Shown here piece after piece: positions 2,819 to 42,250 of a DNA stretch of 64,000 nucleotides. This DNA is from Capitulum mitella. Lineage: Eukaryota; Arthropoda; Thecostraca; Pollicipedomorpha; Pollicipedidae. The notes beneath the pieces were generated by a model. It searched no databases and was not told the DNA's origin. It worked only from the letters and a program-made list of their open reading frames with translations. The translations under genes were made by a program, and so were the position numbers. Each line of letters starts with the position of its first letter. Position 1 is the first letter of the stretch. Where the stretch lies: assembly GCA_030062745.1 (NCBI GenBank), contig CP099845.1, forward strand, positions 16,904,903-16,968,902. The letters run 5' to 3'.

Positions 2819-2946
2819 CTGGTATTGTTTGAGCTTGTCGGCTGCCTCCTGAGTCGACCTGAGGTCGATCCGGAAACTGATGGGTCCCAGCTGTCCGTCC
2901 ATGTGTCTGAACCACTGCTCCAGACAGCGCACCTCGTGCGCTATGT
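2819..2946 (-). CDS. Exon of spectrin-repeat-like gene (most downstream exon seen)
   Basis: The acceptor is GTCCGCAG before 2946 and the donor CAG|GTACGT after 2819. The exon is 128 nt: it opens with two bases completing a codon (phase 1), has 42 codons and ends in phase 0. The peptide includes IAHEVRCLEQWFRHMDGQLG and ends DKLKQYQ, an amphipathic helix with the Leu/Trp spacing of spectrin repeats. The incoming phase fits the outgoing phase of the exon at 19933-20146, which would join to make an Asp codon. If they are adjacent, the intron between is about 17 kb and contains both FOLN genes. The next exon must lie below 2819 or outside the window; none was recognised in 1-2230. Confidence 0.6.
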
Positions 2947-3004
2947 CTGCGGACGAAGCGAGCATGACGGTCAGAGACTGGATCCGCGGACCTGAGACTC
3001 AGAC

Positions 3005-3215
3005 GCTCAGGTCAGGTCACGAACAGAGACATAGCGAGGACGGCCGTCAAAGGCTGGGAGCGGCAGAGTTCGGGCTCTGGACTGAGACCCGGACCGGACC
3101 CAGGTCAGGCCAGGTCAGGTCCTCATTGTTACCTGACCTGACTCAGGTCGGGTCAGGAAATTGTTACCTGACCTCATTGTTACCTGACCTGACTCAGGTC
3201 GGGTCAGGAAAAAGG
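3005..3215. repeat. AGGTCA-rich tandem duplication
   Basis: A segment of about 57 bp containing CTCAGGTCGGGTCAGG is present twice (about 3118-3215). It is preceded by overlapping AGGTCAGGTCA words at 3009 and 3102. The segment is partly self-complementary. Confidence 0.7.
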
Positions 3216-3847
3216 CATAGCAACAGCCCCGACGAATACCTCATCAGCCTCCCTCGAGTACATTTAACCACATCGTACACAGCACCACTGCCTTTAAATA
3301 CGACTGTGACACTGGGGTTGCGAGGTGTGTTTTATGGACTGCAACACAGTTTGTCAGGCCTCCCAAGGCCCATGCCCTCGTGACATTATTTTCATGGCAT
3401 TAATTCCGTTCAAAATGTTCACCAATATCGCTGCAAACTCCACACAGTACCCCAGGGGACGATCCCTTGTTTGTATGCGTGATAACTACACGGTGACCAG
3501 GTTGAATGTACCACTTTCAAAGCGCACGGGCTTCGTGTGAGTCAGTGGAAACGCCCCGATCCCTGGACATTCGAATAATACTGTACCATGAACACAAAGG
3601 ACAATCTGGGTTTCAAGCTGCAAAAAAATGCCAAGACTCTCATAAACTCCGATGGTCGGATTGCGGCTTCTCGCCGTAAGGGTTATCATTGGCAGAACCC
3701 GTTTGCAGGCTGCTATCGCGGCTTTCCGAGGAACGGAATGCGACCTTCGTCTGTCCTACCGCTGATCTGTACTAAATCATTATACCATTGATACGACACT
3801 CAGACGAATTCATCCACCGAAATTAGTATTGCGAGATATATGTATCT

Positions 3848-4474
3848 ATGCTTCATTTTAATGGGTTTCAAAAACTCGTTGAAAAAAACATGCTTCACCA
3901 TCAAAAGAGTAAAAAAAACCTTAGATATAAAATAGTCATATACAGGCTTGGAGCCATTTTCTCCGCAAATGGCAGTCTTCTAGTTGTTCTTTTAATTACA
4001 ACCCAGAAGTGCAAGGCGTGTAACACAAAGTCAGCTAAAGAGCAAGCAAAACACGTCATACCAGCGGCAACATACACGATCGTTGCCAGGCAATTGCCAT
4101 TTCGTGGAGCTCGAAACACGGGCATTCAGCATCATAATGTTTCTTTTTTAAGTAAGCTGTGTGTTCAAACAAAAGACGTTCCAACGTGCGAGCACTATAT
4201 AAATGTGATCATCAGGGGCTTACCATGGCACAGACTGAATCTTAACGTTCATTTGTTTCAGAACCAACATATCAATGCCCAGGTAAGATATCGACTGGTG
4301 TCTCTCGATAAGAAAGGGAAAGTTCAAAAACACTTTGTTCGCCTCCGAAACGAAACAACATCATCTCCCCCCCACCAAAACCAATTCACTTTGGTAAGGG
4401 GTTCTGAGCCCCCCCTAACTTTTCGTCCGCTGATCGGCACGGCATGCTATTGTTCGCTCTGTTGTTCTAACTGA
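3848..4474 (+). other. Orphan 208-codon open frame, not recognised
   Basis: This is an uninterrupted frame in near-neutral-GC intronic DNA, starting MLHFNGFQKLVEKN. It has one hydrophobic patch (SLLVVLLI) and scattered cysteines. There is no signal peptide, no known domain, no evident promoter, and codon use is unlike the FOLN genes. It is long for chance in this composition but otherwise unsupported. It may be a decayed sequence or a chance frame. Confidence 0.12.
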
Positions 4475-5214
4475 TCAGCTTGGAAATTTACGGCGACGTT
4501 GAGCATATGATCTGAGTTATCACGGCTCACTTCTTCCTACATCTGCCGTCCGCTCGAGCGAAACACGGCCGGGCGGGCGGGCGCCACGCAGTCTTCCGAC
4601 TCCGTCAGCCCACTACATCAGTTCACACAAAACACACATTTTCCAACCACTGGCTCCGATTCTGCACCATCACACACGCAATGAAAATGTTATTTCCCAT
4701 GCTACAGATCATACAGCTTGCTTTTCCAGTTAGGCATAGCGATGTACCAAATGATGTATTTTACAGGCAACGATAAACACAGCTGTGATACTGCATGCTC
4801 TTTGTTGAAGAGCCTGTAACAGAAAACGATACGACATACACGTCATTCAATTCCTTCTTTCACTGGCAACATAATGGACGACATATAAGGGAAAGTTTAC
4901 AGCTCATCCCTTTTGCACGCATACGATCACTACCCCCTTTCCAATGAACGGAACAAAATAACCGGAAGAAATTGGCCCATATAGCAGAGGCTACGTTATT
5001 TCAAGTAACTCGTATGTGCACAAAGTTCACATCTTGAGACTGCTGCATCAAGAGTAGCTTACACGATAACCTATCTAGAAGAACCGAGGCAAAAGCAAAA
5101 GAGCCGAAGAGACTGCTGGTCATTCCGCGATACAAAGTCGCGTACCGAAAATGAACGGCCGTGCCACCACAACCACCTGCCCTTGACTGCAACTTAGCCG
5201 TCTGAAACGGCCTG

Positions 5215-5345
5215 AACCGGTCAGCTCCGACCCGGATCAGCAGGGCCTTCAGGTGTCAGCAGCGACTAGCGTCTGACACGGCTGCCAGCAGTGACACAGC
5301 GCCTGACAATGGTTCACAACGGCGACACCGCGCCTGACACGGCTG
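5215..5345. repeat. Degenerate tandem repeat
   Basis: About four diverged copies of a motif of about 35 bp containing GCGCCTGACACGGCTG stand directly left of the AT palindromes. Confidence 0.5.
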
Positions 5346-5349
5346 TCAG

Positions 5350-5475
5350 CACCTAATAACAGTGGTATTAGGTGGACTATAGGTTTATATATATTATATT
5401 ATATATATATATATATATATATAGTCCTAATACTATAGTCCTATAATATTATAGGACTATAGTATTAGGACTATA
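5350..5475. repeat. AT-rich palindrome cluster with a 56-bp perfect palindrome
   Basis: A 9-bp-arm hairpin (5350-5358 with 5366-5374, CACCTAATA) is followed by an (AT)n tract at about 5387-5422. Then comes a perfect palindrome at 5420-5475, centred between 5447 and 5448 with no spacer. The word TATAGTCCTA recurs inside. It may be a snap-back mobile-element remnant or a hairpin grown by replication slippage. Confidence 0.85.
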
Positions 5476-6590
5476 AATAACAGTCAGCCGACGCAAGGTA
5501 GCTCACACAGGTTCTAAATCGAGATACACCTCAGAGCAGTTTTCAGTTCGCAGTATCAGGGTTCTGTCGGAGGGCCCTACTGAACAGGCCGACCTCCGAC
5601 GAGAACTCGCCCCGCTGAGCTGGTGAGTCTACAACCACCGCATAGTGTGCGGGTGGTCCAGTTCTGGGGTCACGCGGCCCACTGGAGCCAAATGAGCCTC
5701 CTATCACGAACTGTTTCATTACTGCACCATCAGATCGGCAGGCACAAAATTACTAGCACGTCTGTGAAACGTTTACAGCAGTAAGACTTTCCTTTAGGAC
5801 AATCCTGTGTCGGCTACCGGGTCGGTACCATCGTCTAACATTCTTTTTGTTCTGTCTGCCACGACTAACATTCCCATCAAGCACTACTTTCATCGCATGA
5901 CGTGGATTCGCCGTGATTACGACTCAAAAACATAATAATCACCCCGGCTTTCCATTTGAGCGCCTGCCAGGACGTCTCCGGCCTTGTGACAGGCCACGTT
6001 ACATTTCCATCTCGGCCAGCGAATCAAGGAGGCCTCTGTAATATGGTAACCTTGCCAAGGACTGGCCTATGGCTAGACCACCATCGAAAAATTGCAACAG
6101 TGTAAGATGAATACGATGAAGGAACAAACCGTCAAGATTTTGTTCAAATATGAGTCGCAGGTGTTGTTTTCTAATTTAGATAAGCCATGGACCACAGAAT
6201 CGTTAGCCTTGTAAGGTTCGATCAACATTCCCCGACAATGTAAACACAATGCACGTGAAATGGTGATGACACAAGTGCCCTGGCCTCGTGCGGACCTTCA
6301 GTCTGATAATAAGATGGTGGACTCAAAAACAGCGGTCAAATAAAGGGGTTCGCGTATTCAGCCCAGGTTTTTCCAAAAACACATTTATACTGCAAAAAGC
6401 TCGTGGCTTCCGTTTCCTTCATGTATTTTCAAACCTTTTCTCCCAGAAAACAAACATAAGCATCCACATAACAGAATGGTGACTACTGATTAACGACAAG
6501 GTCGTTAATAAGCGTTTTCAGGTGTTTTGTGAATGCCCTGGATATCGGAGAAAACATGGATCAGTGCAGCCAGCGCGCTGTGGCCGCTTA
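5476..6590. other. No gene seen; intronic
   Basis: Short chance frames only. No repeats of note and no splice-supported exon were seen between the palindrome and the 3' flank of the 11-module FOLN gene. Confidence 0.5.
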
Positions 6591-6591
6591 A

Positions 6592-6720
6592 GTGAGCACC
6601 CCCTCGGCGGGGGTGTTCTCTCGACCTCTCTTGCAAGGGTGATTCATTATTGCAAAGGCCCAATCCGCGCCAGCATCATCAGTTGCAGGACGCCGTCTGA
6701 GAGCGTCATCTTCAGACGGC
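6592..6720 (-). other. Two hairpins in the 3' flank of the 11-module FOLN gene
   Basis: One perfect 9-bp stem pairs 6692-6700 with 6712-6720 (GCCGTCTGA, 11-nt loop). A second pairs CACCCCC at 6597-6603 with 6609-6615 (5-nt loop) and extends outward with GAG/CTC across a 2-nt bulge. Both lie 140-270 bp past the stop codon. No canonical AATAAA was seen on this strand nearby, only AATAAT-like words near 6645. A role in 3'-end structure is inference. Confidence 0.4.
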
Positions 6721-6857
6721 ATCTCAGCAGGTCCCCATCACGGTATCACCGTACGAGCGTCGACCTCAGCGTCCCATCAACAGGCAGCCGCGGTCTGACC
6801 AGCAGTGTCAGCGCGCCGCTGAGAGGCCCAGTGCCGGCCGGAGCGCGGCCGGAGCCG

Positions 6858-7826
6858 TCACTCGTCCAGCGGCACGCAGCGAGGCTGTTTGGGCGCTGCC
6901 ACGAACAGATCGGCGACCAGGTTCGGCTCGATGAGGCGACAGCGCTGGCCGCGCGGACACGGCAGGTCGCACTCGACGCAGACGCCCTGGTCCAGGCGCA
7001 CCTCGCAGTGCGCCTCGCCCGTGCAGGTGACGCCCTCGCAGGTGGCCTTGCAGCGCGGCACGCCGTGATCGAGCTCGCACTTCTGGCCGCTCAGACAGCG
7101 CACGCCGGCGCAGCTCAGCTCGGTGGAGCAGTGCGGCGCCCGGCCGTCCTCCTCGATGCAGCGGTGGCCGGGCTTGCAGCGGCCGGTGCCGCAGCGGGCG
7201 CCGACGCGCAGCACGCAGCCGGCCAGGTGGTTCTTCAACCGGCAGACGTGGTCGTAGCGACACTTGGTGTCGGCGCAGGTGGTGGCCGTGACGCACTTGG
7301 CCGAGCCGGCGAACATGTGGCACGTGAGGCCGGCGCCGCAGCGCACGTCCTCGCATGCCTGACGCTTCACGCACCGGTGCTGATCGTGCACCACGCGGCA
7401 CTCCTCGTCGGCCGGACAGGCCAGGTCCCGACAGCCGGTCGTCACCTGGCAGGCCGCCTTGCCGTCTTCCACGACGCAGACCTCTCCAAAGCCGCAGGTA
7501 AGGTCGGCGCAGGTAAGCCGCTTCACGCAGCGGGCCAGACCCCCCAGCACCTGGCACTCATTGTCGGCGTCGCACGTCACCTTCGAACAGCTGCTCAGCT
7601 TGGTGCAGCGCGGCACACCGCGCAACACCTTGCACTCCTGGTCGTAGCGGCAGCGCAGGTCATCGCAAGAGCGTTTCGTCAGGCAGTAGGCCTTGCCGTT
7701 GATCAGCTGGCACTCCTTGGTGTCCGGGCAGGTGAGCTCAGCGCAGCTGGTGACCGGGGGCGCGGCCAGAGCGCCGGCCGGACCCAGCACGACCAGAGCA
7801 GTCAGCAGCAGGCGAACGGTCCCCAT
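6858..7826 (-). CDS. Secreted protein of 11 four-cysteine FOLN-like modules, single exon
   Basis: The open frame encodes 322 aa. The start is the ATG at 7826, in a perfect Kozak context (GCCACCATGG) just below a TATA box; the frame is open further upstream, but that part crosses the promoter. Residues 1-21 (MGTVRLLLTALVVLGPAGALA) form a signal peptide and the first cysteine is residue 28. Eleven modules of about 26 residues follow, each with the pattern C-x4-C-x5-C-x8-C (for example CDDLRC, then EC, then GVPRC), giving 44 cysteines, all within modules. The last module is longer and ends APKQPRC. The spacing matches the follistatin N-terminal-like (FOLN, half-EGF-like) domain; no Kazal, EGF or transmembrane part follows. 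It is probably an extracellular or matrix/coat protein. The gene is intronless, lies inside a large intron of the spectrin-like gene on the same strand, and is a paralogue of the gene at 13777-14859. The exact role is unknown. Confidence 0.85.
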   Translation of the reverse strand: MGTVRLLLTALVVLGPAGALAAPPVTSCAELTCPDTKECQLINGKAYCLTKRSCDDLRCRYDQECKVLRGVPRCTKLSSCSKVTCDADNECQVLGGLARCVKRLTCADLTCGFGEVCVVEDGKAACQVTTGCRDLACPADEECRVVHDQHRCVKRQACEDVRCGAGLTCHMFAGSAKCVTATTCADTKCRYDHVCRLKNHLAGCVLRVGARCGTGRCKPGHRCIEEDGRAPHCSTELSCAGVRCLSGQKCELDHGVPRCKATCEGVTCTGEAHCEVRLDQGVCVECDLPCPRGQRCRLIEPNLVADLFVAAPKQPRCVPLDE

Positions 7827-7876
7827 GGTGGCAGCGGCGGCGCGCACAGATGCGCTGCCGCCGACGCCAGCACCGC

Positions 7877-7883
7877 TTTTATA
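7877..7883 (-). promoter_or_regulatory. TATA box of the 11-module FOLN gene
   Basis: TATAAAA reads on the minus strand 57 bp upstream of the ATG. An initiator-like CATCT lies with its A at 7851, 32 bp downstream, so a leader of about 25 nt is inferred. No ATG lies between TATA and the chosen start. Confidence 0.75.
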
Positions 7884-10800
7884 GATCCGGCTAAGCCGCG
7901 CTAATCCTGCTGAGCATTTTTTCACCCACGGAGGATGGTACGATCCGCCAATCAGAAGGCGTTTCGTCCGGACTATGTCCTTCTCGGATTGACGGTGAGG
8001 CCCCGCCGAGCCGATCCTTGGAATCGCAAACCACCGGTGGCCATCCCGCAAGTTAGCGGTGTGGCCCTTCCATTGAGGGGTCCAGGCCCTCACGTTCTCC
8101 GAACAGGCAGCAGAGCCAACTAGGCACAGTCCAGCACATGACTGTAACACGGACAAATGCGCAGTGCGTCGTACGGGAGAAAAACAACACGAGATACTAC
8201 GGCAAGAAAGTTCTAAATGATACTAAGGTAAATAGATAGTTCTATCCCAACAGCTCATCGCGCGCAGTCATGGCTATCACGCAATTCAAAATCGAAGGAG
8301 TTCAGAGCGAACTTTCAACGCGTTTAGCGCATAAGATTTCATACATGGAAAGCGCTCGAAAACAAAAGTTCAGATCGAGGTGACTATCAATGTGAGTGTT
8401 CAAACTTCAGAGTCTTTAGTGCCCGAGTGCGCGAGCCGATCGCGACACAAGTGGCACCATCGGACGCGCCGACTCGGCGGACAGATTATGGTGTAGGTTT
8501 TGAAGCGATTCGTGGCGTGTGGCACGTGCCACGTGGCGCGAGCCGGACCTCTGCAGTATTCAGTTAATGTCAGCTACGGGTCAAATGACGGGTGCTGTTG
8601 GCTCAAGACTTGGAGACAGCATGGGCCCCACTCGCAGGTGCGTGGTTTTGTGATCGGCACCCACGCACGATCCATGTCGGGATCCTCAGGCACGTGTTTC
8701 GACTTGGACTCGGGGACATCTCAGTGCCGTCAACAGTGACCTAGGCGGCTAAAATTTGATGGGTAAATGGGACAAACACTGGCACCCCACATGGTGGGCA
8801 GGGTGCAACGAGTCACATGCAGCGCGCGTGCGTCTCTTTTACACCACTCCGTTTGCGATGGGTCAATTTCCGGGACGCCAACGGCGCAGTTTGGCGCGAT
8901 GATGGCTTGGCAAGGCGGGCAGGAAGCTGGACGACCAACTTTGATGGTTTCAGGCCGCAATGATGGTGCAGCTTGCACGTGAAACACGAGGTGCCAAAGA
9001 TCAAAGATCCTTCTTTGCCACGACATTATTACCGCTGGCACGCTGAAAATTGGCGGGCAGGCAGGCACGTGGCCAGGATTTTTCCGGGGGGGGGGGATGT
9101 CAAATTTTGTCATATGTCACTGGCATATGACGAAATTTTTCCAAAAAAGTAGCAATTTTATGTAATTTGCCTTATCCTTCATGCACAGGAAAGCAATATA
9201 ATGCTTGCTTTCGCAACACACATATAATCACTATTCTGTATTCCTGAGAAATCGCTATATATCTAGAGCAGACCGCTCGGCTCAGGGGAGTGGCCACGGC
9301 CCCCATCGCCCCTCTCCCCTGGCTTCGTCCCTGCGGGCAGGAGCACGTGATACGTGGCAATCGATATACGTGGCTGTTTCCCATGTCAATAGTTTTAGCC
9401 CGGTGTGTGCGGGGCGCACGTACTGAGGTGTGCCCCTCTGCCACTCAGGCCTTTGGTTTGGGAGCCGCTGATGCTATAGGCGCCAAACTTTGTGGTGGGC
9501 TGCAAAGTCACAAAAGCCATCCAAGACAAGCAAGATTAAGGGCGTCAGCGGCAAGACGCCACCCATGTGAGCGTGCAACTCGTTGGACTTGGGACCCTCC
9601 GTTTGCAGGAAGGTGCACAGTTCATTTTTGGTTCCCACCAACATGATGAGGACAGCAGGAGTCATCTCATGGGGTAATCCTGGTACTATACGGGCTCACA
9701 GGCCTGCGCGCGACACAACGCATTCGCTTTTGGCCTCAAACCAATCGTGCAACGCGTTTGTTTGCCTCCAGAACAAAAATGCGAAATATATGTACTTATG
9801 GCACGAAAATGACCGCTCCTCAATAGGCGTGCCATACCATGTCTGTCGAACAATGGCATGTTTTCAATGCCACAAGAACGCAATACCATGTTATAAATGC
9901 AATGGCAGGACTGAACGTAACATCAGTGCTTAAAATGACGGACGAAGTTCGTACGACCCGTCAATGAAGTACGAACAATCTAACATGGGCATTTTTGCAC
10001 GCTAAGGGCAGGGTGTTTCCAACGCTACCTACACTTCACCAACGTAAGAACTGCAAGATATGGCTAAAATGATGGCCGACCGCAGCATTAACGGGTACCT
10101 TGGCTGATTCACTAAGCTTGTGCATTACACCGGGATCAGGACTGTTGTCTTGGCAGTTGAGTTACGTAACGTCTGGGCCGTGTCCCGCTTGAACAATGCC
10201 AGATGACTGTCAGGCACCTGAGAAGATCCTGCCAATATCTGGCCGCACATTCTAGTACCCACAAAATTCACGTGGCCCGCGCATTGTGCTAGCCATTCAG
10301 CGGCACATCATTCTATTCCAGCGACTACGGCCGAAGCTGTCAGCGCTGTTGGTATAATGACGACCATCGTCGGGGCCGCCAGCCGGAAATGGCGATCACG
10401 TCTCGACGGCGCCCGGTCGTCGGCGGCGGCGGCACGGCTCTGGCCTGGATTTTCCCCGAGGCCGCAGTCTGTGTGTCAAAGGTTCTTAGTCTAGGCCTCC
10501 CAGGCCCTACAGATCCAGGATTAAGCTGTCCGCGGCGTCAAACCGGTCCTGTGCCTCAGTAATGAGAGAACATGAGGCGACACGTGTTCTAGGGAGATGG
10601 CCTTCGGTGTGGGGACGATCAATGGTGCGCCTCAAGCCGAGATCAGACAGGGCGGAGACCGAGGGAAGTCAAAACGCCGCCGTAGAAAACAAACCGACGT
10701 TCTAGAAGGTATAAGTGTAAGTACGGTTGTCACCAGAGTACAGTTTTGGGTCTTGGGGCAACAGCGGGCGACGCCACATCGCAGTTTCCAACGCTTGTAA

Positions 10801-11795
10801 CACCATAAACATTGCAGCCGTACACCAGCACGCAGGACGGCATCGCAGTCTACTTAATCTGCGAGGTAACTAAAACTGAACTATTTGCAAAGCAAATACC
10901 GCGAAGTTTACTGACGCACTCTCTAAATATCTATGACTTCAAATACAACCCGAGCTGCGAGGTTTCTTGTAACCTCGCCCAAACTGGTGACCGGAATATT
11001 TCACCGATCCGTTTTCACGTCGAGAAGTTTGATTCGCAGCCGCCAGATGAACCAGCAGAATGCGGTTCGGGAGTATGTGTTGTACGCGTTTTAGGAGGAT
11101 AGCACTCCCGAGCGAAAGCAAATCGCGAGAGGAAGGATTACAGACATGTGAAGAGGGTCGCTGACTCGGCCGTCCCGCTGCTGTCAGCCAGACGTCCAGA
11201 CGCTCCAGACATAACACCAGATTCTCTCCACGCCTTTTGGACCATGAATCGTACCGAAAGACGTTACAATGCGTCACGGCACCGCAAAGCCGAGGCTGGT
11301 GATGTCACAACTGGTCGGAAATAGGAAAGCGTTTCCAGAAACATCCTCCGACCTTTCCCTTACTGGCCGCGCCCTGCCCTCCCTGTTCCTCGAGTCTTCC
11401 TCTTTTGGACAGACTATGCCAGGTGATCTCCTCGTAATCGTGATCAGCTCAGAACAGCATTATCCAAGAACGCGGGATACTGGATATTAGTGGCGATAGC
11501 TCTATATGTCGACTGCAAAATTCCGACCCGGTGAGTGTGGCTCGAGAGATTGCCGATAGAGGCTCCCCAGGGGCCAGCCCCGGTTCTTACCGGCGCCGGA
11601 TAGGTGATCGCGGTGGTCAGGTAGCGCAGTGTGGGGGGGGGGGAGGATCTACGGTCACGCAAAGCCGAGCACGCAGCGGCGGAAACAGCCACACTACGCC
11701 GTGCTGATTAGCGCAGAGCACGGCCACATGGCCTGTTCAGCCAACCGGGTGCAGCAGAATCCGTAACGGTCCCCCATTACGGCCAGACGGCTGGC
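7884..11795. other. Intronic stretch without a supported gene
   Basis: It contains an 11-bp G run (9086-9096), the hairpin at 9102-9138, a second G run (11633-11643) and short chance frames. A minus-strand peptide near 11150-11230 (LVLCLERLDVWLTAAGR) resembles a spectrin helix, but no pyrimidine-backed acceptor or good donor flanks it. Confidence 0.5.
9086..9138. repeat. Poly-G run and 15-bp-arm hairpin
   Basis: G11 at 9086-9096 is followed by arms 9102-9116 and 9124-9138 (AAATTTTGTCATATG, one mismatch, 7-nt loop). It resembles a piece of a decayed interspersed repeat. Confidence 0.5.
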
Positions 11796-12242
11796 GACTG
11801 ACGGGGCGTGCTCAGTGGTCACGGTCGCTGGCTGGCCGGCGACTGACGGGCCGTGCTCAGTGATCCCGGTCGCTGGTTGGCCGGCGACTGACGGGCCGTG
11901 CTCAGTGATCCCGGTCGCTGGCCGGCGACTGACGGGCCGTGCTCAGTGATCCCGGTCGCTGGCTGGCCGGCGACTGACGGGCCGTGCTCAGTGATCCCGG
12001 TCGCTGGCCGGCGACTGACGGGCCGTGCTCAGTGATCCGGTCGCTGGTTGGCCGGCGAATGACGGGCCGTGCTCAGTGATCCCGGTCGCTGATTGGCCGG
12101 CGAATGACGGGCCGTGCTCAGTGGTCCCGGTCGCTGGCTGGCCGGCGATTGACGGGCCGTGCTCAGTGACCCCGGTCGCTGGTTGGCCAGCGACTGACGG
12201 GCCGTGCTCAGTGATCACGGTCGCTGGCTGGCCGGCGACTGC
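11796..12242. repeat. Minisatellite, 45-bp unit with 41-bp variants, about 10 copies
   Basis: The unit contains GACGGGCCGTGCTCAGTGAT and CGGTCGCTGG. The 41-bp variants lack a 4-bp step in the GGCTGGCC part. The 45-bp units keep frame, giving spurious 15-residue peptide repeats. Confidence 0.9.
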
Positions 12243-13393
12243 AGCTCACGCTGCCAGTCGAGGGCCGCTGCAGCCGACATGCCACATATCCTGCGGTCAG
12301 GAATCGTGCCACAGTAACAGGATCTGACTGACCACCGACGGAACGACCATCCAGACATGTTCCGCCGAACATGGAGGGTGATCTAGTAACGACGAGATCG
12401 AAAGAATAGTCTCCGTGGGTTCCACCGAGTGTGTCTCTCCGGCCCACCGCCTGCACTCTTCCTCGTGTAACATGGCGCTGAGAAATCTCGCCAACAAATC
12501 CCCGCCAAGAGCAGCTATGCTCTGCAATGCCCGCGATATATCATATTTCATAAGTGGATTCCGAACACCTGCGGTTACAAAACCGCTTCAGTGTAAAATG
12601 ATGATGGTCACAGGACACGTGAACCCCATTTTTGTGCTAACTAACCCAGGAACATACCTACGTGATGTACCCAAAAATTTACGGGTATCTTCCAAATATT
12701 TGGGAATTATTTACCCGGATGAGAGTTGCTCTTCGCCCCGGAGAGAGTCTTTGACCAATTTCAGCGTCTTGGTACTCCACCAAAGATCTGGAGGGTGCTT
12801 CTTTTCAAGAGTGATGACTCAAATCTTTCAGAGGGTTCAGAACGTTTTTGGTGAATCCTACACTTCACGTCATTTGCAATGGTCTATGCACTGGATTCAA
12901 AAATAGAATATCTGGACCCGGTATTTGCATGTATAACAATTCACAAATAAACAAGCGCACACCCACAAGGACAAGCTCCCATACATAAAATGCCCAAAGT
13001 ACAAAGAAGAAGCCTCTTGGCGTATCTGAATGCACAAAAATGAATGCGGGGATAAAATTATACTTGGTCGTTACTGCGAAACCAGAGATACTCAGGGAGA
13101 ACACAGCCAGGACAGTCGGGATTATCTCATGACACAATGACGTATTTACCACACGACGCCCAAGAATATTATACATTAAGCTATTAATCTTTCTGCCGTA
13201 CAGATACGCTTTGGCTGGACATACGATGACTGTAGCTGCCTTACTCGCTATGTTCATTTTGTTGAAGATTGCGACGCGAACAGAGTGTCAATATTGAGAA
13301 AAATGAAACAAAATAGCAAAGCTGAAGCTAGAACATAAATTACGAATACGACGCCAGCTTGACGTCAGTGCCAAACGCGTACATGGCCAGACC
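12243..13393. other. No supported gene; intronic
   Basis: Two chance-length frames (12415-12906 plus, 12865-13257 minus) have no recognisable domain. The stretch is the 3' flank of the 8-module FOLN gene; no clear AATAAA on the minus strand was found by eye. Confidence 0.45.
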
Positions 13394-13423
13394 GTGAGGA
13401 TGGCACGACTTCATACGCAGCAC

Positions 13424-13790
13424 CACCGTCCACACGAACGGTCAGCAGGAGGCCACTCAGACCGACACCGTCCAGACGAACGGTCAGGAGGCCACTCAAA
13501 CCGCCGCCGTCCAGACGAACGGTCAGGAGGCCACTCAGACCGCCACCGTCCAGACGAACGGTCAGGAGGCCACTCAGACCGCCGCCGTCCAGACGAACGG
13601 TCAGGAGGCCACTCAGACCGCCACCGTCCAGACGAACGGCCAGGAGGCCACTCAGACCGCCACCGTCCAGACGAACGGTCAGCAGGAGGCCACTCAGACC
13701 GCCACCGTCCAGACGAACGGTCAGCAGGAGGCCAGTCAGACCGACACCGTCCAGACGACGGTCCTGAGCAGGCCACTCAGACCAGGCTGG
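13424..13790. repeat. Minisatellite, 39/42-bp unit, about 9 copies, overlapping the stop of the 8-module FOLN gene
   Basis: The unit contains GAGGCCACTCAGACCGCCAC and CGTCCAGACGAACGG. Length variants differ by one CAG triplet, so units stay in frame. The TGA of the FOLN gene (13777-13779) is the TGA present once in each unit, read in one frame only. The first unit is 41 bp, which shifts the frame so that later units read open. Confidence 0.9.
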
Positions 13791-14859
13791 AGGGGCTCAA
13801 AAACCTAGTGCGCGTCCGCGGTGGACGACTGGCAGGGAACCGACGTTTGGCAGAGGGCCGGCGTTTAGCAGCTGATGGCCGGCGCTTGGCGGCCGATGGC
13901 CGGCGCTTGGCAGCTGATGGCCGGCGCTTGGCGGCTGATGGTCGGCGCTTGCCCGCAGACGGTCGCGCCGAGTCGCCGCCCACGCGCTCACAGCGGGGCT
14001 GTTTGGGCTCCTCGCTGCCGGTGTCGGCGAGCGAGGTGGGGCCGACAAAGCGGCACTCGCGGCCCTTGGGGCAGCGCAGCGTGCACTCGCTGCAGACGGG
14101 CTTGCCGTTCTCGATGCGGCAGTGGCCACTGCGACACCCCAGCGTGCTGCAGGCGGCCACGCAGCGCGGCCGGCCGGCCACCAGCGCGCACTCCTGGCCG
14201 GCGCTGCACACCGTCTGGTCGCAGGTGGGCGCTGCCGCCGGCGGCGGCGGTCGTGTCGGCTTGGGCCGCTGGACGGCCGGCTCGCAGGTGCCGCGGCCGG
14301 ACGGAAGCAGCGTGCAGCGCAGCCCAGTCGGACAGCGCACGGCCGCGCAGCCCTCGCCCGGCCGGTCCTCGCAGTGCGCCAGGTTGTTCTCAATGACGCA
14401 CTTCTGGTCGTAGCGGCATTTGGCGTCCTCACAGGTGGTTATGTGCACGCAGCGCGGTTCGCCGCCGAACACCTGGCATGTGAACTCGGCTTGACAACGG
14501 AAACGGAAGCAGGGGTCGGCGGGCTGCTGGCGTCGGATGGCGCCGGGCCGGGAGGGCCGGGCCGGCCGGCTGGGTAGGCGAGAGTCTGCTCCGGCCCTGC
14601 TCGGCTTTCTGCGGGTCGGCGGGCGCCTGGCGACCGGCACGCAGCTTGGCGTGCCGCTCACCATGCGACACCGAGTCCGCGCCGGGCACTGCCTCTGCGA
14701 GCACGTCTGCGAACTCTTCTTCGGCTCGCAGCGCGGCTTGCCGGCCACCATGCGGCACTGTCTGCCGGCCGGACAGCTGAACTTGAAGCAGGTGCGCTGG
14801 CCGGCAGCGGCCGCCGCCAGGGCGGCCAGCGACAGCAGCAGCAGGGAGACGTGGTGCAT
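13777..14859 (-). CDS. Secreted protein of 8 FOLN-like modules with repetitive basic tail, single exon
   Basis: It encodes 360 aa from the ATG at 14859, the first ATG below the TATA box. Residues 1-20 (MHHVSLLLLSLAALAAAAAG) are the signal peptide. Eight four-cysteine modules start at Cys24, 53, 117, 143, 171, 213, 237 and 259. Modules 2 and 3 are split by an Arg/Pro-rich linker (about 74-116), and modules 5 and 6 by a Pro-rich linker (193-212). The last module ends EPKQPRC (Cys290), like APKQPRC in the 322-aa paralogue. Modules 4-8 align in order with modules 7-11 of that protein (CRYDQKC versus CRYDHVC). Residues 291-360 are a cysteine-free, strongly basic tail with about five KRRPSAA repeats. 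The tail is encoded by a minisatellite and the stop sits in another one. It is probably an extracellular protein; the tail could bind anionic matrix or surfaces, which is inference. Confidence 0.85.
   Translation of the reverse strand: MHHVSLLLLSLAALAAAAAGQRTCFKFSCPAGRQCRMVAGKPRCEPKKSSQTCSQRQCPARTRCRMVSGTPSCVPVARRPPTRRKPSRAGADSRLPSRPARPSRPGAIRRQQPADPCFRFRCQAEFTCQVFGGEPRCVHITTCEDAKCRYDQKCVIENNLAHCEDRPGEGCAAVRCPTGLRCTLLPSGRGTCEPAVQRPKPTRPPPPAAAPTCDQTVCSAGQECALVAGRPRCVAACSTLGCRSGHCRIENGKPVCSECTLRCPKGRECRFVGPTSLADTGSEEPKQPRCERVGGDSARPSAGKRRPSAAKRRPSAAKRRPSAAKRRPSAAKRRPSAKRRFPASRPPRTRTRFLSPSSLV
13839..13968. repeat. Coding 21-bp minisatellite, about 5-6 copies
   Basis: The unit encodes KRRPSAA on the minus strand and forms the C-terminal tail of the 8-module FOLN protein. 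Copies are nearly identical at DNA level, so expansion is recent. Confidence 0.85.
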
Positions 14860-14908
14860 CTCGCCGGCACCGGACGGACAGTGACACACCGGCCGCCTCG
14901 GCCGCCGC

Positions 14909-14915
14909 CTTTATA
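14909..14915 (-). promoter_or_regulatory. TATA box of the 8-module FOLN gene
   Basis: TATAAAG on the minus strand starts 56 bp upstream of the ATG. An arthropod-type initiator TCACT has its A at 14882, 33 bp downstream, giving a leader of about 23 nt. The spacing nearly equals that of the paralogue at 7877-7883. Confidence 0.75.
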
Positions 14916-16870
14916 CCGGCCCGGCGGCGGCAACAGCAATCCAGCGGACACGACCGCGCTCCGCCCCGGTCCCGGATGTCGAGCAGGGCACCCCCGCGTG
15001 GCGGCGGCCGGCCGCTCATGACGTCTGTCGGCACGCGCCTGTCCCGGATCTGCCGAGCTGAAGCCGACGCCTGGGCGGCGAGATCGAGACTTCAAACAGA
15101 CCACGGAGCGAGACCAGCCGCCGGCCGGTCAGACGCTGATTCAGCCTCGAGTTCGGCCGCCGAATTGGTGCAGACTCGTCCAGCAGAGCAGGACAGCGCC
15201 CGCCGAGCGCCGTCAGGCTGGACTCCGGCCGAGAAACCCCTGGCAGTTGGGAGACGGTCGGGACACAGCTGGCTGTCCACGACCCCGGGCAACGTGGCGC
15301 CACAGCAGCGACCAGCGATCGGCGGACGGGGTCACGGCGGACGGACGGGGTCACGGCGGGCGTGACGGATAGAGCAGTCTGCGGTCTGTCTGCTGTCAAC
15401 TGCGGTCCAGTCCAGACACAACTGCGGCGGACAGCAGCAGCAGCGATGGCTGGTGTCACAAACGGAATAGTACCTGACCTGCAGTCGACTCCAGAGACGA
15501 TGGAACGAAATGATCACTGGGCTGTACCACATCCCGCCTGAAATTAGTTAGATTTGGCATACACCTACTGTCGCCTCACAGGCATTTCATCAAAGACCGA
15601 ACAGTCGACAAAACTGTGCGTAAGGCGTGCTGCGGATTGTGCTTCACCGACATCGGCGCTGCGCCATCAGCCTGAAGTATATCATACTTCCGAGTTGGTA
15701 CTGGTACAGAATGTTAACAAATCCTTTAAATTTCCAAGTTTGGCATTCGCATCACAAAATCTCCTAGGATATCATCAATAACTGGTTGGACGAGAGAGCA
15801 ACTGCATTAGTGTTTTCTGATCCCACCAATGAATAGTATCTGATTAGTCTTAGGTACTTCGTGATACATCAGTTACTCTGTGACTTTCGTTCCAAGCATC
15901 TATCATTCAAACAGCCTTCTACCAATAATGCCCCAAATGAAAACGGATAAGAACTCTAGTTACGCTAGATCAGCGGTGAGTACGGAATCTAGGCCCTTAA
16001 ATAGCTTGATAAACCGCTGGTACCTTTCCCACGAATCTGGCGGAAACACTAACAAATGAAACAATGAGGGAACGTTCACTGGCGACGCTTTCACCTACAC
16101 CAGAAAAGTCTGGAAATGAACATGCCTCTCCACTACTGTCAGTTATCAATAAGAATATGGCGCCACTTCGGTGGGATAAATACCGCAGAACATGGAGCAA
16201 TAGGAATGCGAGAACACAAAGACCTACTGGGTTAAACCATCAAAGGCCGAGAACGGAAGGCTCTCTGCTAAAGCCGGAAATGCAATTCTCGAAGGACAGG
16301 CAGTGGGTGCATCCGAACCAAACATTTCTGAACATGCAAATTCCACATGCATCAGCCCCCCAGTCAAGATCGCAGATGACCAAACATTTGCATAACAATT
16401 TATATGCGTCCCAAAGTATTCGAGCCAGCATTCCTTCCATCAGTGATCCTCTGATGCCAAGTCGTCTGACGGCACAGGTCAGACCACAGAGCTTCCTGGA
16501 GGGTTTCAGAAGCGCACGGTCCGCTGGCAACCCAACGTCGGTCTTTTCTTCACGATCAACTGCGACTGGTATGCTTTCCCAAACGTCACCAAACCTGGCA
16601 GTACGGTCAAACGCCAGCACTCCCCCCCCCCGCAGCCACTACTGATCTCGCCATCTCTCGGATCAACCGTCCCCTTCCCCCTCCGCCGATATCCGTGAGA
16701 GCGCGCTCCGCTCTGTGACGATGTGACCGCGAACATGTAACGCGATTACGTGTCGGTGACGCGGCTGATCCGGCCGCCCGGGGGCGTCTAACGGGAGGAA
16801 TCACTGTCAAATGGCGAGCGGTATCGTCTCGCTGAACCGGACTGACCAGTAGAGATCCGTCTCAACGCGA
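14916..16870. other. Upstream flank of the 8-module FOLN gene; no other gene seen
   Basis: GC-rich promoter-proximal DNA (to about 15.4 kb) gives way to neutral DNA. A 193-codon plus-strand frame (16064-16645) has no recognisable feature. A C10 run lies at 16622-16631, and a short duplication (GGACGGGGTCACGGCGG) at 15320-15360. Confidence 0.45.
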
Positions 16871-16884
16871 CCGAGACCACAGCC

Positions 16885-17615
16885 AGGCGGCAACAGAAAC
16901 CACAGCCGGACGGTGGCCGAAACCACAGCCGGACGGTGGCCGAAGCCACAGCCGGACGGTGGAGGAAACCACAGCCGGACGGCAACAGAAACCACAGCCG
17001 GACGGCAACAGAAGCCATGGCCGGACGGTGGAGGAAACCACAGCCGGACGGTGGCCGAAACCACAGCCGGACGGCGACCGAAACCACAGCCGGACGGCAA
17101 CAGAAACCACAGCCAGACGGCAACAGAAACCGCAGCCGGACGGTGGCCGAAACCACAGCCGGACGGCGACCGAAATCACAGTCGGACGGTGGCCGAAACC
17201 ACAGCCGGACGGCGACCGAAATCACAGTCGGACGGTGGCCGAAGCCACAGCCGGACGGTGGAGGAAACCACAGCCGGACGGCAACAGAAACCACAGCCGG
17301 ACGGTGGAGGAAACCACAGCCGGACGGCAACCGAAACCACAGCCGGACGGCAACCGAAACCACAGCCGGACGGCAACAGAAACCACAGCCAGACGAAGAG
17401 CCGGACGGTGGCCGAAACCACAGCCGGACGGCGACCGAAATCACAGTCGGACGGTGGCCGAAACCACAGCCGGACGGCGACCGAAATCACAGTCGGACGG
17501 TGGCCGAAACCACAGCCGGACGGCGACCGAAACCACAGCCGGACGGTGGCCGAAACCACAGCCGGACGGCATCAGAAACCACGGCCGGACGGCGACCGAA
17601 GCCACAGCCGGACGG
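16885..17615. repeat. Minisatellite, 23-bp unit, about 32 copies
   Basis: The unit contains AACCACAGCCGGACGG followed by a variable TGGCCG, CAACAG, CGACCG or TGGAGG. The 23-bp period lacks stops in all three plus frames and several minus frames, so frames up to 337 codons arise by artefact. The ordered variant types would allow array mapping. Confidence 0.95.
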
Positions 17616-18532
17616 CGTTCCGAGGAAAAAGCAGGCCTTTGGCAGCACCAGCACGTGCCGGAAGTACACAGACTCTCCGAGAATTTCGACTGTAAGTACG
17701 AGCTCCCACCAGCCGGCAGGCACTCGGAACGCAGAGGTCACCACAAGGTGGCATCGGCTCGGAGAATCGGCCGGCGACTCGGTAATACCCACCCCCTCCC
17801 CTCCAGGATCACCATGGCAACAGATACCGGCTGAGGGGGGGACGTCAGATACAGCCTGCATACAGGGCAACTCATCCTCAAAGGCGATTACTAGGGCCTA
17901 CGACAAAATGTGGCAGTGGGCGCAAGTTTCCACCCAGCTTTGTTTCTGATGCAAATGCTCCACGAAGCCATGGTGTCTGCAAAACCCGGTTCCACGGCGG
18001 CAGGCTGGCGCTATCTTTCCAGGCCAAGGTTAGCATTACGAAGAATACAAATAATCGTTCGGACTGGACGTGAAGACCACATCAAGGTCAAGTTTAATCA
18101 CAAATGGCCTGCAAATACAGCGCGACTGACATAAGACAATATCTTTAAAATGCACCTGGCGTTATGTGAAATGGCCAAGCGTCGTTCGTGACTAAACCAC
18201 TGTCGTGAATTACCGGCTAAGAAAACAGGAGTTTCCAGGCAGTCCTTATGTCCTTTCATCGCATACATACTTATCCTCATCAGGCATCAACCCAACGCAG
18301 AACACCGTCTAGGCATCCGGAGGAGTCTGCAGAGCCCTCCAGGACATCTAAAACATCGGCCAGCTTCATGGGTCAGGGCTAATGACGTCAGAAAACTGAC
18401 CGACGCGTCACCACCGTCAACGGCGATCAGCACCGCCCCCGCCAGCGACCGCGAGCTCTGCAGCTGCAGAACCGGCCACCGGGTCGGGCTGCGGCAGCCG
18501 TGCAGGACCCGCGACTGGCCCTCCATCTGTGG

Positions 18533-18840
18533 CAGCCACACCGGACCGAGCCGGATCACTGAGGCAGCCACACCGGACCCTGAGCCGGATCACTGAGGCA
18601 GCCACACCGGACTCTGAGCCGGATCACTGAGGCAGCCACACCGGACCCTGAGCCGGATCACTGAGGCAGCCACGCCGGACTCTGAGTTGGCCCTCTGAGG
18701 CAGCCACACCGGACCCCGAGCCGGATCACTGAGGAAGCCACACCGGACCCTGGGCCGGATCACTGAGGCAGCCACACCGGACTCTGAGTTGGCCCTCTGA
18801 GGCAGCCATACCGGACCCCGAGCCGGATCACTGAGGAAGA
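18533..18840. repeat. Minisatellite, about 34-bp unit, 8-9 copies
   Basis: The unit contains GGCAGCCACACCGGAC and TGAGCCGGATCACTGA. A variant type has TGAGTTGGCCCTCTGA. Confidence 0.9.
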
Positions 18841-19932
18841 GGTGCAAAGAGCATCCTCATACCCTCCCCGGAGGATAGCAAATCAGCCTAGAAACATCCA
18901 ACGCCCTGGTAGCAAAATGAAGTTCCAGGACCGGCATACGCGTGCGTTTTTATGCAACATGCTATGAGGTCGTCTAAAAACTGTGTTCACTTTAATCCTG
19001 CAGTTATTGCTAAAACGGCCGAATTACCCCTTTGGAGGCCTTAATTTTCTGGCAGCAATATCATCGGGCAATACGGCCAATATCCAGCTATCGTGAAAAT
19101 AGTTCACAGTACCCACCACCATACGCAAACATCTGACTGGTGGGATACCCAAGTGAGGAACGCAAACTGGTTGGTGGGGCACCTCAGAAAGGAAAACGGA
19201 GAATGGGGAACTGTAGAATGTGCTGGCCCATGTAACCTTTGGAATCAAGTTGTTTTGCGAGGAACCACGCATATCCGATGAAGTTATGGATAAAGTTATG
19301 TTTTCTTTTACCGCAATCGGGAAAATAAAGTGCTATTTCATGACTGTTTGTTATTCAAGTTCAGATGAATTTATGATTTCTTACCATAAGTGCAGTTCAC
19401 GTTTGCACAGTTCCAAAAAAAGTACTCACAGCACGGTGTCTATGGTAATTCGCAAACAAAGTAACACAAATAAGTTTACGCGCAATATGAGGTCCAAGCA
19501 TCACAAACATCCAATACATAGCTAACCTACTTAAATAAGGTCTCTTTACCAAGTATGTTTCTTTCATAGTTTCGTGCAGAAAAATTAATCTAAGAACAAT
19601 GCGGTTGACTGAACTCGGTGCCAGAAAACGCGGCATTTCCGAGGCTGCTGTGTCGAGTCGGTTGCGCAGCCCCCAGTATGAACCGCGCATATGAAATGCT
19701 GTTTGTGTTGAATGGCACTGGGGCCTATACACCGACCTCTGTCTGGAATGGACATGGCCGCTCCACTATTGGTGAAATGGCTATTTCTCCAGTTTTACTG
19801 TAGCAAATCAGAAGACGTTAAAACAGGGTAATTTAGCTGCGTGGCAAATCTGATCGTCGGTATCACGACAGCGTACCAGGCAGGCCGTCTGCGGCTCTGC
19901 CGAGTGTGCGGCGAGCTCGGCCAGCCCCTCAC
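18841..19932. other. Start of the 17-kb intron; nothing recognised
   Basis: This is neutral-composition DNA immediately past the donor at 19932. Only short chance frames were seen. Confidence 0.5.
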
Positions 19933-20146
19933 CTGCGCCGATGTCGGCCATCTCCGGGTCGGCCGGGTCGGCGGCTGGCGACGGTGGACGCACACACTGC
20001 AGCAACGTGTCCCACTTGCTGGAGAGGTGTGCCAGCCGCCAGGCCACCTCGTCGCGCAGCTCCGGCTGGCGGCGCTGCATACGCAGACACTGTTCCGTCA
20101 ACAGCTTGCGCCGGTACGACTTGCGCTGAATCTCTTCCATGTGAGA
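19933..20146 (-). CDS. Exon of spectrin-repeat-like gene
   Basis: The acceptor is CCGGCCGACAG before 20146 (phase 0) and the donor GCAG|GTGAGG after 19933 (phase 1). It is 214 nt and 71 codons long. The peptide begins SHMEEIQRKSYRRKLL, is charged and helical through RMQRRQPELRDEV, reaches the spectrin-type helix end LAHLSSKWDTLLQ, then a Pro-rich stretch to PEMADIGA. The incoming phase matches the phase-0 donor of the exon at 22741-22911. The peptide points to a spectrin-repeat protein such as Klarsicht, AKAP6 or nesprins; the family is a tentative reading from residue pattern only. Confidence 0.65.
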
Positions 20147-22740
20147 CTGTCGGCCGGGGACGAAAATGGTCAGAGCGCCAGCACGGCAAGCAGACAGCGG
20201 AGCGAGGGGCACAACAGGAGCAGCATACATCGCAGGAGGGGACAAAGCCCGCGAGCATACGAGGGAACAAACAGTGGAGCAGGAGCAGGGAGCGGAACCA
20301 GGAGGGCGGGAAGCGGAACAGGACGGCAAAGGAACAACCCATTTCCTGTCCGTATTCAACTAACGCATGTCAGGAACACACCAGATTACTGCAATGGTCT
20401 TCCATGCAAGTTCAAATCCCATCCGCATTACGTGGATTCGAGAATCGTGGATTTCATTTTCAATTCCGGGTACATATCGCTTTTACCAGTAGCGGGATCA
20501 AAATTTCAGTACCGGCAGTCTCGACAAGCCTTTGGTGGCACGCAAGCAGTCCATTTTCTTAAGGAACAGCCGAATCACTACCCATGATTGTGATCTGGCA
20601 TTTTCATCCATGTGCAAAAGATGAAACTCAGAGCGGATGAGTCGGTCTGCAGACTCCGCACGTTCCAGATAACAGAGTGCTCGTGACCGGGGGATTCGGG
20701 GGCCGTGGGAGGCCGGATAAGCTACCTACAGTCAGACGTGGCGGCGGTCCAAATCCATTCCAGCCTGTCGCCATGACGGCCGTGAACATTAGACACGCCG
20801 TATCACCGCCGTCCATAAAGGCATAGTTCAATAAACAGGCTCCATGACATACCATGCCTATTCCCAATCCACATCCTCAAAGACGTAAGGCTCCCTGATC
20901 AATCACAGTACATTGCTGCTAATAATTGGTATAGATATCGCCAGAGAACCTGCCACGGAGACTGCAACAGCCCTGCAAGCGACCTCGCTTTCCGCCAAGA
21001 CGTCCCGAGTCACATGCAAAAACAGTCTCATTCCACCCGATGGCAGGGCACCTCAAAAACAGGATACACTAATCCAGAGACTGCACGGAGAGTATCGTGC
21101 AGAGCAAAAATTTCGCCTGTTCTACCTTATTGGATCCGGTCAGCAAAACTCCATGAATCTCATGCAAAACTTTTAGCCGTCAAGAAAATGTGCCTTTGCA
21201 ATTGGTTCCAGGTGTTTCGATGTTGGCATTCGAAACACCTGCAATTTCCTCTTGCGGTGTTCTTTTACGGAGCCGTCTTTCTCAAGTTCAAACATCTCAA
21301 ATGCGGTTTTCTTTCTTGGGTTCTTCAGATTCGTCGGACGAATCTCAGTATGCATGGCTTGTTACCTCGCGAAACATATGACTATTTGAACTGGATTACT
21401 TATTGACACTATGGTGCATAAATCATTCGCTTTACCGGTGTTCAGTGCTTTGCTATGTTCACCCCTGAACCCTGCTAGGTCTGAACCCTGGTGAACCCGC
21501 ACATACGCGACGGACACGTGAGGGAATGTCAGAACCAATTACACTTATCAAGCAAGGCTGCATAGCTGAAATTTAGGTGGATGAAACAGTGTATCCAGGT
21601 TTCAATTTATGACAGGGGTCCAGTGCAATATTCCTGCAACCTTTAGGGAAGTCAATTTCTGTCACCAGAATTTCCCTCAGCATTTTTTTTATGTTGCCGA
21701 TTTACGTCGCATAGCCAGTACATCACTTCACATGCAGCTCTCAATGCTACACAACCCACTGTTTACATGTGAGGTCATTATTGCCCGCATAGTACGACAG
21801 CTCTGCCATTTCTGCAACATCAGCATTTGCTTATCTAAGTAACTGAGGGTTACTCGGACTTTCACTTAATAAATTTCAAAAAGCTTGGATTGATAATTAC
21901 CTGTTACTACAGTATGGCAAACGGCTAAGCTTGAGAAAGCAAAATGATTGACATTCTAAGATGTGAAATTTCAACTGCAAGACAGGTATGTGTAGCAGAT
22001 AAAGCATCGGTATAGGCGTAGCACACCAGTCGCATTATGTCATCAGGCCCCACACACAAAGCCAACAGTCACAGGGATAAGATTCCCATATACGACGTTG
22101 ACTGCAGGCAACTTCATGACGGGTCAGATACACTGAAGACTGAGCAAGATAGCACGAGCAACAGCAAGCGACCGTGTCAGGCCTGTGGGATCTGTCTGAT
22201 CCTTCTGACACGCCGGGCGGCCGGGTCGTCAGAACAGGCCGCCGACGGATCGGCCGCGGCCAGTGGACGCGGAGCCGGGTAGAAAGGGCGGCACCCTCCG
22301 AGCCGGCCGATCCCCCCTGAGCCGGCACCGCGGCCCGTACAGCGCCGCCCACAAAGGGGATCAGCCACAATGAGCCGAGCCGCGGCCGACCCGCGCACGA
22401 CATACAGAGCAGCTCTCCTTCCGGCGGAGGTGCTTAGAACCAACCGCAGCCACGTGGGGCGGTCAACAGTGTCAAACGGCCGGCGATGCCCCCACGGAGA
22501 CATCTGCACTGCCATTGAGGTTATCCAAGGCCTCAGGCAAAATGTGAACCGGAACACTGTCGGAAATATTATGCCCAGTGGAACATTACTTCTTTTATCT
22601 TTTATTCGTAGTCTTTTAGCCCGGAGCCCAGGCGTCAAGGAACGACCTAAGTGTTTCGTTTTTTTGTTTATGTTTTGATCTATGGGGGTGGATGCAGTTC
22701 GTGCGTGCTCGAGGGACGCAGTACGAGTCCACGATAGTAC
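20147..22740. other. Intron of the spectrin-like gene (2594 bp)
   Basis: Bounded by the donor at 22740 and the acceptor before 20146. It holds a perfect 12-bp-arm hairpin at 21209-21241 (CAGGTGTTTCGA, 9-nt loop) and otherwise nothing recognised. Confidence 0.6.
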
Positions 22741-22911
22741 CTCACGAAGACGTCTGTCGGTGATGTTCTTGGGCGAACTGTAGATGACCACCTGGATCTC
22801 GTTCAGCCACTCATACAGCTCGTTGTACTGGTCCATGAACTCGGCGAACGACCAGGTGGAATCCATCCCGGGCACGTCGGTGGCGTCCCACGTCAGATCA
22901 CCGCTGGCCTC
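22741..22911 (-). CDS. Exon of spectrin-repeat-like gene
   Basis: The exon is exactly 57 codons, phase 0 at both ends. The acceptor is GGCTTGTTCGCAG before 22911 and the donor GAG|GTACTA after 22741, a weaker but acceptable donor. The peptide opens EASGDLTWDATDVPGMD and continues with WSFAEFMDQYNELYEWLNEI, whose Tyr/Leu/Trp-Leu spacing is typical of a spectrin-repeat helix. It ends KNITDRRLRE. The reading joins in phase to the exons on both sides, which is the strongest support that these pieces are one gene. Confidence 0.7.
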
Positions 22912-26605: not shown

Positions 26606-26738
26606 CTTGCACGACTCGATCAGCTGATCCTCCATCAGGAAGGCGTAGCTGGGCTCGAGTGCCTCCCAGAAGGCGTCTTTGCTGACCTCGCTGCCCCAGG
26701 ACTGGCGGTGGGCTGGGTCGGCCGTACTGCGTTCCTTC
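26606..26738 (-). CDS. Exon of spectrin-repeat-like gene, next to a 52-bp minisatellite
   Basis: The acceptor is CCGTCCCTCAG before 26738; the first base completes a codon (phase 2), 44 codons follow, and the donor AAG|GTGACC after 26606 leaves phase 0. The peptide begins KERSTADPAHRQSWGSE and has the likely helix FWEALEPSYAFLMEDQLIE, ending SCK, which runs directly into EASGDL of the next exon. The phase 2 start does not fit the phase 1 end of the exon at 41617-42059, so an exon between them has been missed. The acceptor lies at the edge of the tandem array at 26765-27710. Confidence 0.62.
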
Positions 26739-42059: not shown

Positions 42060-42074
42060 CTGAGCGGCAACGCC

Positions 42075-42250
42075 GGCTGGCTGACCCCGCTCCACACCGA
42101 CCTGAGGTCACACGGGAACCGGTCAGACAGCGGACACGACACACCATCACTGTGACCCCGCTCCACACCGACCTGAGGTCACACGGGACACCGGTCAGAC
42201 AGCGGACACGACACACCACCACTGCAGTGCCGCTCGACACCGATCTGTGG
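42075..42250. repeat. Tandem repeat, about 72-bp unit, about 2.3 copies, beside a splice acceptor
   Basis: Copies share CCCCGCTCCACACCGACCTG and GGTCAGACAGCGGACACGAC. It starts about 20 bp from the acceptor of exon 41617-42059, and the unit contains a word like the acceptor tract. Confidence 0.85.

Follow-up and report, generated by a model that had tools for sequence, protein, structure and literature searches.

Genes nested within introns are common in animals, and in general they are complete genes lying within an intron of their host. Regularly spaced cysteine modules are known from the cysteine-rich eggshell membrane protein (CREMP) of birds and reptiles, which in the published account is built of C-X4-C-X5-C-X8-C modules with linkers of 6 or 11 residues and with D3, K8, G9, G17 and P19 described as absolutely conserved in the modules, and the same account gives C-X4-C-X5-C-X6-10-C as the module of the Dictyostelium SP75 spore coat proteins (PMC3068167). 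We analyzed a 64,000-nt stretch of the barnacle Capitulum mitella (C7:16904903-16968902, hereafter the window, from an assembly of 477 Mb in 16 contigs) and extended the reading into its flanks, 264 kb of C7 in all. From the sequence, we consider it likely that two paralogous, intronless genes with TATA boxes, here called A and B, encode probably secreted cysteine-rich proteins and are nested on the sense strand within an intron of about 17 kb in a very large nuclear-anchoring gene, a KASH gene of the klarsicht type. These two genes share with intron-nested genes in general the complete gene within a host intron, and differ in their orientation on the host strand, in being a pair of paralogues and in having relatives beside a duplicate of the host. 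Nothing on the locus or on CREMP-like barnacle proteins was found in the open-licence literature, among the matches listed.

Genes A and B and their flanking exons

The proposed nested genes and the host exons on either side of them are, in window coordinates and in the order of transcription:

19933..20146, minus strand: host exon that precedes A and B, closing spectrin-like repeat 1; entered in phase 0 and left in phase 1
2947..19932, minus strand: host intron holding A and B, 16,986 bp
14910..14915, minus strand: TATA box of gene B, TATAAA starting at 14915, 56 bp before the ATG
13777..14859, minus strand: nested gene B, single exon, ATG to stop, 360 aa, 7 recognized four-cysteine modules and a tail of K/R/P/S/A repeats
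7878..7883, minus strand: TATA box of gene A, TATAAA starting at 7883, 57 bp before the ATG
6858..7826, minus strand: nested gene A, single exon, ATG to stop, 322 aa, 10 recognized four-cysteine modules
2819..2946, minus strand: host exon that follows A and B, opening spectrin-like repeat 2; entered in phase 1 and left in phase 0

Both open reading frames were recovered where the original prediction, of two complete TATA-bearing single-exon genes, had placed them, and each has a TATA box. A TATAWA 45-60 bp upstream was found for 0.5% of minus-strand positions, for 30 of 3441 ATGs and for 1 of 916 ATGs with GC-rich upstream sequence, and an initiator-like GTCACTG lies 30 bp past the TATA of gene B. 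A hydrophobic, signal-peptide-like leader (judged by eye) stands at the N-terminus of A and of B, and both proteins are probably secreted. The length of the frames was dropped as evidence for genes, because in this GC-rich DNA other ATG-to-stop frames of 300-664 aa occur on both strands of the 264 kb. It is the module pattern that exceeds chance: of the 20 four-cysteine modules found by a six-frame scan of the window, 10 lie in A and 7 in B, and the other 3 are isolated and scattered.

The flanking exons were recovered by an exon scan that combines codon preference with splice-site scores and is blind to exon positions. In the window it returned 9 minus-strand and 6 plus-strand candidates, including 22792-22911, 19933-20146 and 2819-2946 (one further minus candidate lies inside A), and in a stricter scan 2819-2946 was the sole candidate on either strand. 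The exon 19933-20146 leaves one nucleotide and 2819-2946 supplies two, so that the junction across the nested genes is in phase (1/1), as had been claimed beforehand for these two exons.

Several repeats touch gene B and its surroundings:

13856..13951, minus strand: 21-bp repeat coding for the repetitive tail of gene B
13423..13783, minus strand: 39-bp minisatellite of 9 copies, beginning at the end of gene B

A plus-strand open reading frame of 337 aa (window 13400-14413) is partly antisense to gene B and partly derived from the 39-bp minisatellite. Minisatellites are very dense in the window as a whole (76 Tandem Repeats Finder rows, of which several may describe one array, with units of 2-210 bp). 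No tRNA was found with bacterial settings, and no Rfam match above the gathering scores.

The host gene

On the host strand the chain of exons leads beyond the left edge of the window to a KASH domain. The remaining host features are:

41617..42101, minus strand: candidate upstream host exon from the exon scan, with a phase mismatch to 26738; an exon may be missing between them
26606..26738, minus strand: probable further host exon, end placed by eye at an in-frame GT, scan end 26492
22740..22911, minus strand: host exon, start of spectrin-like repeat 1, scan end 22792; 22740 preferred by eye, both ends in phase 0
C7:16870654-16870851, minus strand: exon next after 2819-2946, completing its spectrin-like repeat in phase
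C7:16813279-16813440, minus strand: KASH domain, 73.4 bits against a cut-off of 23, E=9.3e-18, 91 kb past the left edge of the window

The junction from the 22911 exon to the 20146 exon is in phase (0/0). Joined to each other, 2819-2946 and C7:16870654-16870851 align to positions 8-102 of the 105 of Pfam Spectrin (E 0.0014); with the preceding exons joined, Spectrin is matched in two stretches at E 4.8e-6, and a longer query gave 27.9 bits. A 156-aa host piece had two PDB matches at E<=10, the best at E 0.32, none convincing.

Over the 264 kb the exon scan returned 25 minus and 9 plus candidates, compared with 4-9 in each of eight block-resampled versions of the minus strand, and its best score on the real minus strand was 65.6, against 18.5 in these controls. 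Twenty of the 25 minus candidates lie between the KASH domain and window position 42101, as do 3 of the 9 on the plus strand. Two of the minus candidates are pieces of A and B, and one is a weak candidate in the intron (4224-4301, score 12.7, within the control range); the chain without these three has 17 candidates and 16 junctions, 14 of which are phase-compatible (p ~1e-5 under random phases). We infer from this chain that the KASH domain belongs to the same transcript as the flanking exons, and a KASH gene of the klarsicht type, some 115-134 kb long, is the most likely identity of the host.

Like klarsicht-type KASH proteins, the host has a KASH domain over the cut-off, what appear to be spectrin-like repeats and no CH match nearby, whereas the N-terminal pair of CH domains of Nesprin-1/2 was not found near it. 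No CH-domain match lies within 450 kb of the host (36 CH matches listed at E<=0.001, of which the three on C7 are at 16.33 Mb and in the opposite orientation), in a search that scored only the best candidates and could miss domains split between exons. This lack of a nearby CH domain, together with the tail sequence, suggests klarsicht rather than nesprin; the choice draws partly on general features of the two families and on the look of a second KASH pair in the genome. Five KASH matches in the genome exceeded the cut-off, one pair at C7 16.81 Mb and C9 12.67 Mb, another at C7 23.89 Mb and C9 8.96 Mb, and a weak one on C5; by eye, the second pair looks more nesprin-like.

Two features of the plus strand lie in the right flank of the window. 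The frame C7:17015308-17015835 resembles, by eye, a retroelement reverse transcriptase, and the exon candidate C7:17063380-17063475 falls in that part of a joined query where Homeodomain was matched weakly and below its cut-off (E 0.0081).

Cysteine modules of A and B

Nine of the ten modules of gene A are exactly C-X4-C-X5-C-X8-C and one has X9; in gene B, five of seven are exact, one has X9 and one is X4-X4-X8. The closest solved structure for both proteins was a chicken CREMP construct of four modules (PDB 9pgb, phmmer E 3.3e-14 for A and 4.8e-14 for B), and tandem modules of this spacing are indeed what A and B share with CREMP. They differ in the linkers, which in CREMP are of the two lengths given above, whereas in A six of nine module-start intervals are 26 residues (X5 linkers) and in B they are irregular. 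They differ also in the residues conserved in CREMP, since D3, K8, G9, G17 and P19 are kept in 5, 0, 3, 6 and 2 of the nine exact modules of A and in 1, 0, 2, 4 and 4 of the five of B, and K8 is thus found in none of the 14. Moreover, CREMP comes from the eggshell membrane of birds and reptiles, whereas A and B are genes of an arthropod. We therefore class A and B as CREMP-like and not as CREMPs, because the cysteine frame agrees but the linkers and conserved residues mostly differ. The SP75 proteins have a similar cysteine spacing, likened here by description only.

Both genes had been labelled as FOLN (follistatin/osteonectin-like EGF domain, PF09289), which is likewise a short cysteine module, and this name had to be rejected: B reached 14.3 bits (E=0.047) against the curated cut-off of 21.1, and A had no match at E<=10 in a search whose filters drop weak ones. 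The only Pfam match of A was to TILa, below threshold. An AlphaFold model of A, made with no alignment, was of low confidence, with a mean predicted local distance difference test (pLDDT) of 65 and a predicted template modelling score (pTM) of 0.24. In Foldseek this model found 9pgb in sixth place (E 4.9e-4), after NELL2/NEL and Notch entries, with template modelling scores (TM-scores) of 0.06-0.19 in the first six rows. The fold search is undecided for the family of A and appears to add nothing beyond the sequence.

The C9 locus, alternative readings and meaning of the probable nesting

The second member of the first KASH pair, on C9, allowed the locus to be compared within one genome. A host query of 1112 aa, which we joined from the C7 candidate exons, gave 20 matches, 14 on C7, 5 on C9 and 1 on C6 (E 1.06). 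The five C9 pieces lie in order on the plus strand at C9:12656573-12665539, cover query 757-1086 at 43-69% identity and are followed by the KASH domain. The 16 matches to A at E<=0.001 were confined to C1, C7, C9 and C10; with B as query, there were 53 matches at E<=1, those on other contigs covering residues 259-354, mainly the repetitive tail. Three relatives (C9_1, C9_2 and C9_3) form a cluster at 12591-12610 kb of C9, on the plus strand like the host copy and 46-65 kb upstream of its first matched exon. A TATA box stands at all three of their 5' ends, at 43, 51 and 49 bp from the ATG, and GTCAC follows 27 bp past the TATA start, so that four of the five TATA boxes of A, B and the C9 genes fall inside the 45-60 bp slot, and C9_2 and C9_3 share the layout of A and B. 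The DNA read on C9 comprised the 9 kb before the cluster, a stretch of 7.8 kb that includes the last gene of the cluster and three short loci, with C9:12.613-12.656 Mb outside. Against these stretches the host exons gave nothing (best tblastn E 0.26 and 0.67), and in the exon scan the 9 kb before the cluster yielded a single exon-like stretch, unrelated to the host, and the 7.8 kb around the last gene yielded none.

The remaining relative on C9, C9_1 (C9:12590966-12594646), has a TATA box and a leader and then modules in three frames; it may be a frameshifted or intron-bearing copy, perhaps a decaying one. Two long relatives at C1:33906545 and C10:3279140 have open frames of 981 and 1318 codons, about 47% identical, with 23 (C1) and 27 (C10) modules in the parts read. 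A 171-aa piece at C1:33390560-33391072 shares 98.8% identity with the C-terminal end of the long gene on C10 and looks to be a recent partial copy on another chromosome.

In a tree of 83 C-terminal columns and 8 rows, A and the C1 and C10 genes stood apart from B and the three C9 genes (support 99/98), and the C9 relatives appear to be B-type. That this family met a duplicate of the host by chance, on one strand and within 70 kb, is unlikely by our estimate because the family sits on so few loci in the 477-Mb genome; therefore a B-type gene was probably at the locus before the duplication, and the association of the small genes with the KASH gene probably predates the separation of the C7 and C9 copies. 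The authors of PMC11331182 report that barnacles underwent a genome duplication more than 247 My ago, and the two KASH pairs on C7 and C9, together with the C1/C10 pair in the cysteine family, would fit such a duplication.

Several observations weigh against the nesting of A and B in a klarsicht-type host. The Spectrin score of the joined exons, 27.5 bits, is under the curated 29.9; in the phases, the continuity of the repeat and the exon chain leading to KASH, the sequence supports the original prediction of same-strand nesting in a spectrin-like gene. The preferred donor at 22740 scores poorly. Two of the 16 chain junctions are out of phase (41617-42101 to 26738, and C7:16819098 to 16816957), exons being missing or misplaced at both, and one further junction hangs on the weak candidate C7:16833248 (score 12.8). 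The C7 matches of the host query are there by construction and carry no weight as proof. One of the five host pieces on C9 contains a stop codon. Nothing on C9 matches query 1-756, the part of the host with the exons on either side of A and B, so that the small genes there may lie outside the host gene. Gene A has no GTCAC initiator past its TATA. Finally, AATAAA is absent from the sense strand of the 16,986-bp intron, and so from behind A and B; since only 1.5-2.3 were expected, this absence is uninformative, speaking neither for nor against the host passing the nested 3' ends, and for the same reason we rejected it as a sign of purging.

Three other readings of the locus have to be weighed with these points. 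One is that there are two neighbouring genes, one of spectrin type whose end is near 19933 and a KASH gene whose start is near 2946, and that A and B are ordinary intergenic genes in the stretch that separates them. The C9 copy would suit it, since only query 757-1086 and KASH are seen there, so that the C-terminal part is able to exist on its own. Such an arrangement is nevertheless unlikely, as the acceptor of 2819-2946 is in the phase left by 19933-20146 and this exon continues the tandem spectrin-like array into C7:16870654-16870851 in phase; a weaker point, few being expected, is that the sense strand from 22606 to 1108 has no AATAAA at which an upstream gene could end. Frames that stay intact for 322 and 360 codons and keep the module cysteines in register, and correctly placed TATA boxes, make it very unlikely that A and B are unexpressed retrocopies or decaying copies, even though both are intronless and decaying or partial copies do occur in the family (C9_1 with its three frames, the C1 fragment of the C10 gene). 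Retrocopies are normally without TATA boxes. It is hardly credible that A and B belong to the host transcript, as alternative terminal exons or as fusion products. They do lie on the host strand within one intron, but each runs from its own start to its own stop behind its own TATA box and opens with a signal-peptide-like N-terminus; of the three C9 relatives, C9_2 and C9_3 are laid out likewise; and it would be hard to make sense of a secreted protein joined to a cytoplasmic one with spectrin repeats.

If A and B are indeed nested genes of a KASH-gene intron, each would be fired by its own promoter in secretory tissue and give an unspliced, independently polyadenylated mRNA, while during transcription of the host the polymerase would read through A and B, both leaving with the intron. 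That the host transcript would then have to get past the 3' ends of A and B, as originally argued, follows logically from the nesting. ATTAAA occurs four times on the sense strand of the intron (1.7-2.4 expected), never within 2.8 kb past either stop, and the variant signal AATGAA lies 209 bp past the stop of A and 518 bp past that of B. Suppression of internal polyadenylation signals by the U1 small nuclear ribonucleoprotein (U1 snRNP) is a known mechanism, and we predict that weak or non-canonical 3' signals, or their suppression by U1 snRNP, likely let the host transcript continue. The proteins themselves, as strings of small disulphide modules, would probably be structural secretions of a coat, egg case, cuticle or adhesive.

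As to the history of the locus, we give about equal weight for and against a fuller scenario, in which the small genes joined the klarsicht-type gene before the C7/C9 duplication, the host on C9 then shed its N-terminal half but the formerly nested genes persisted and increased in number where they were, and selection held the nested array and not the host intron, perhaps through a shared regulatory block.

The probable nesting belongs to an ordinary class; what stands out is the CREMP-like family and how old its association with the KASH gene probably is. Same-strand nesting raises the question of how a long host transcript passes two complete genes without stopping, and two versions of the locus in one genome, with and apparently without the flanking host exons, would allow a direct comparison of what nesting does to the small genes and to their host. 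Moreover, the locus adds an arthropod set of CREMP-like modules, in a group of interest for its secretions, to a pattern described from the egg membranes of birds and lizards.

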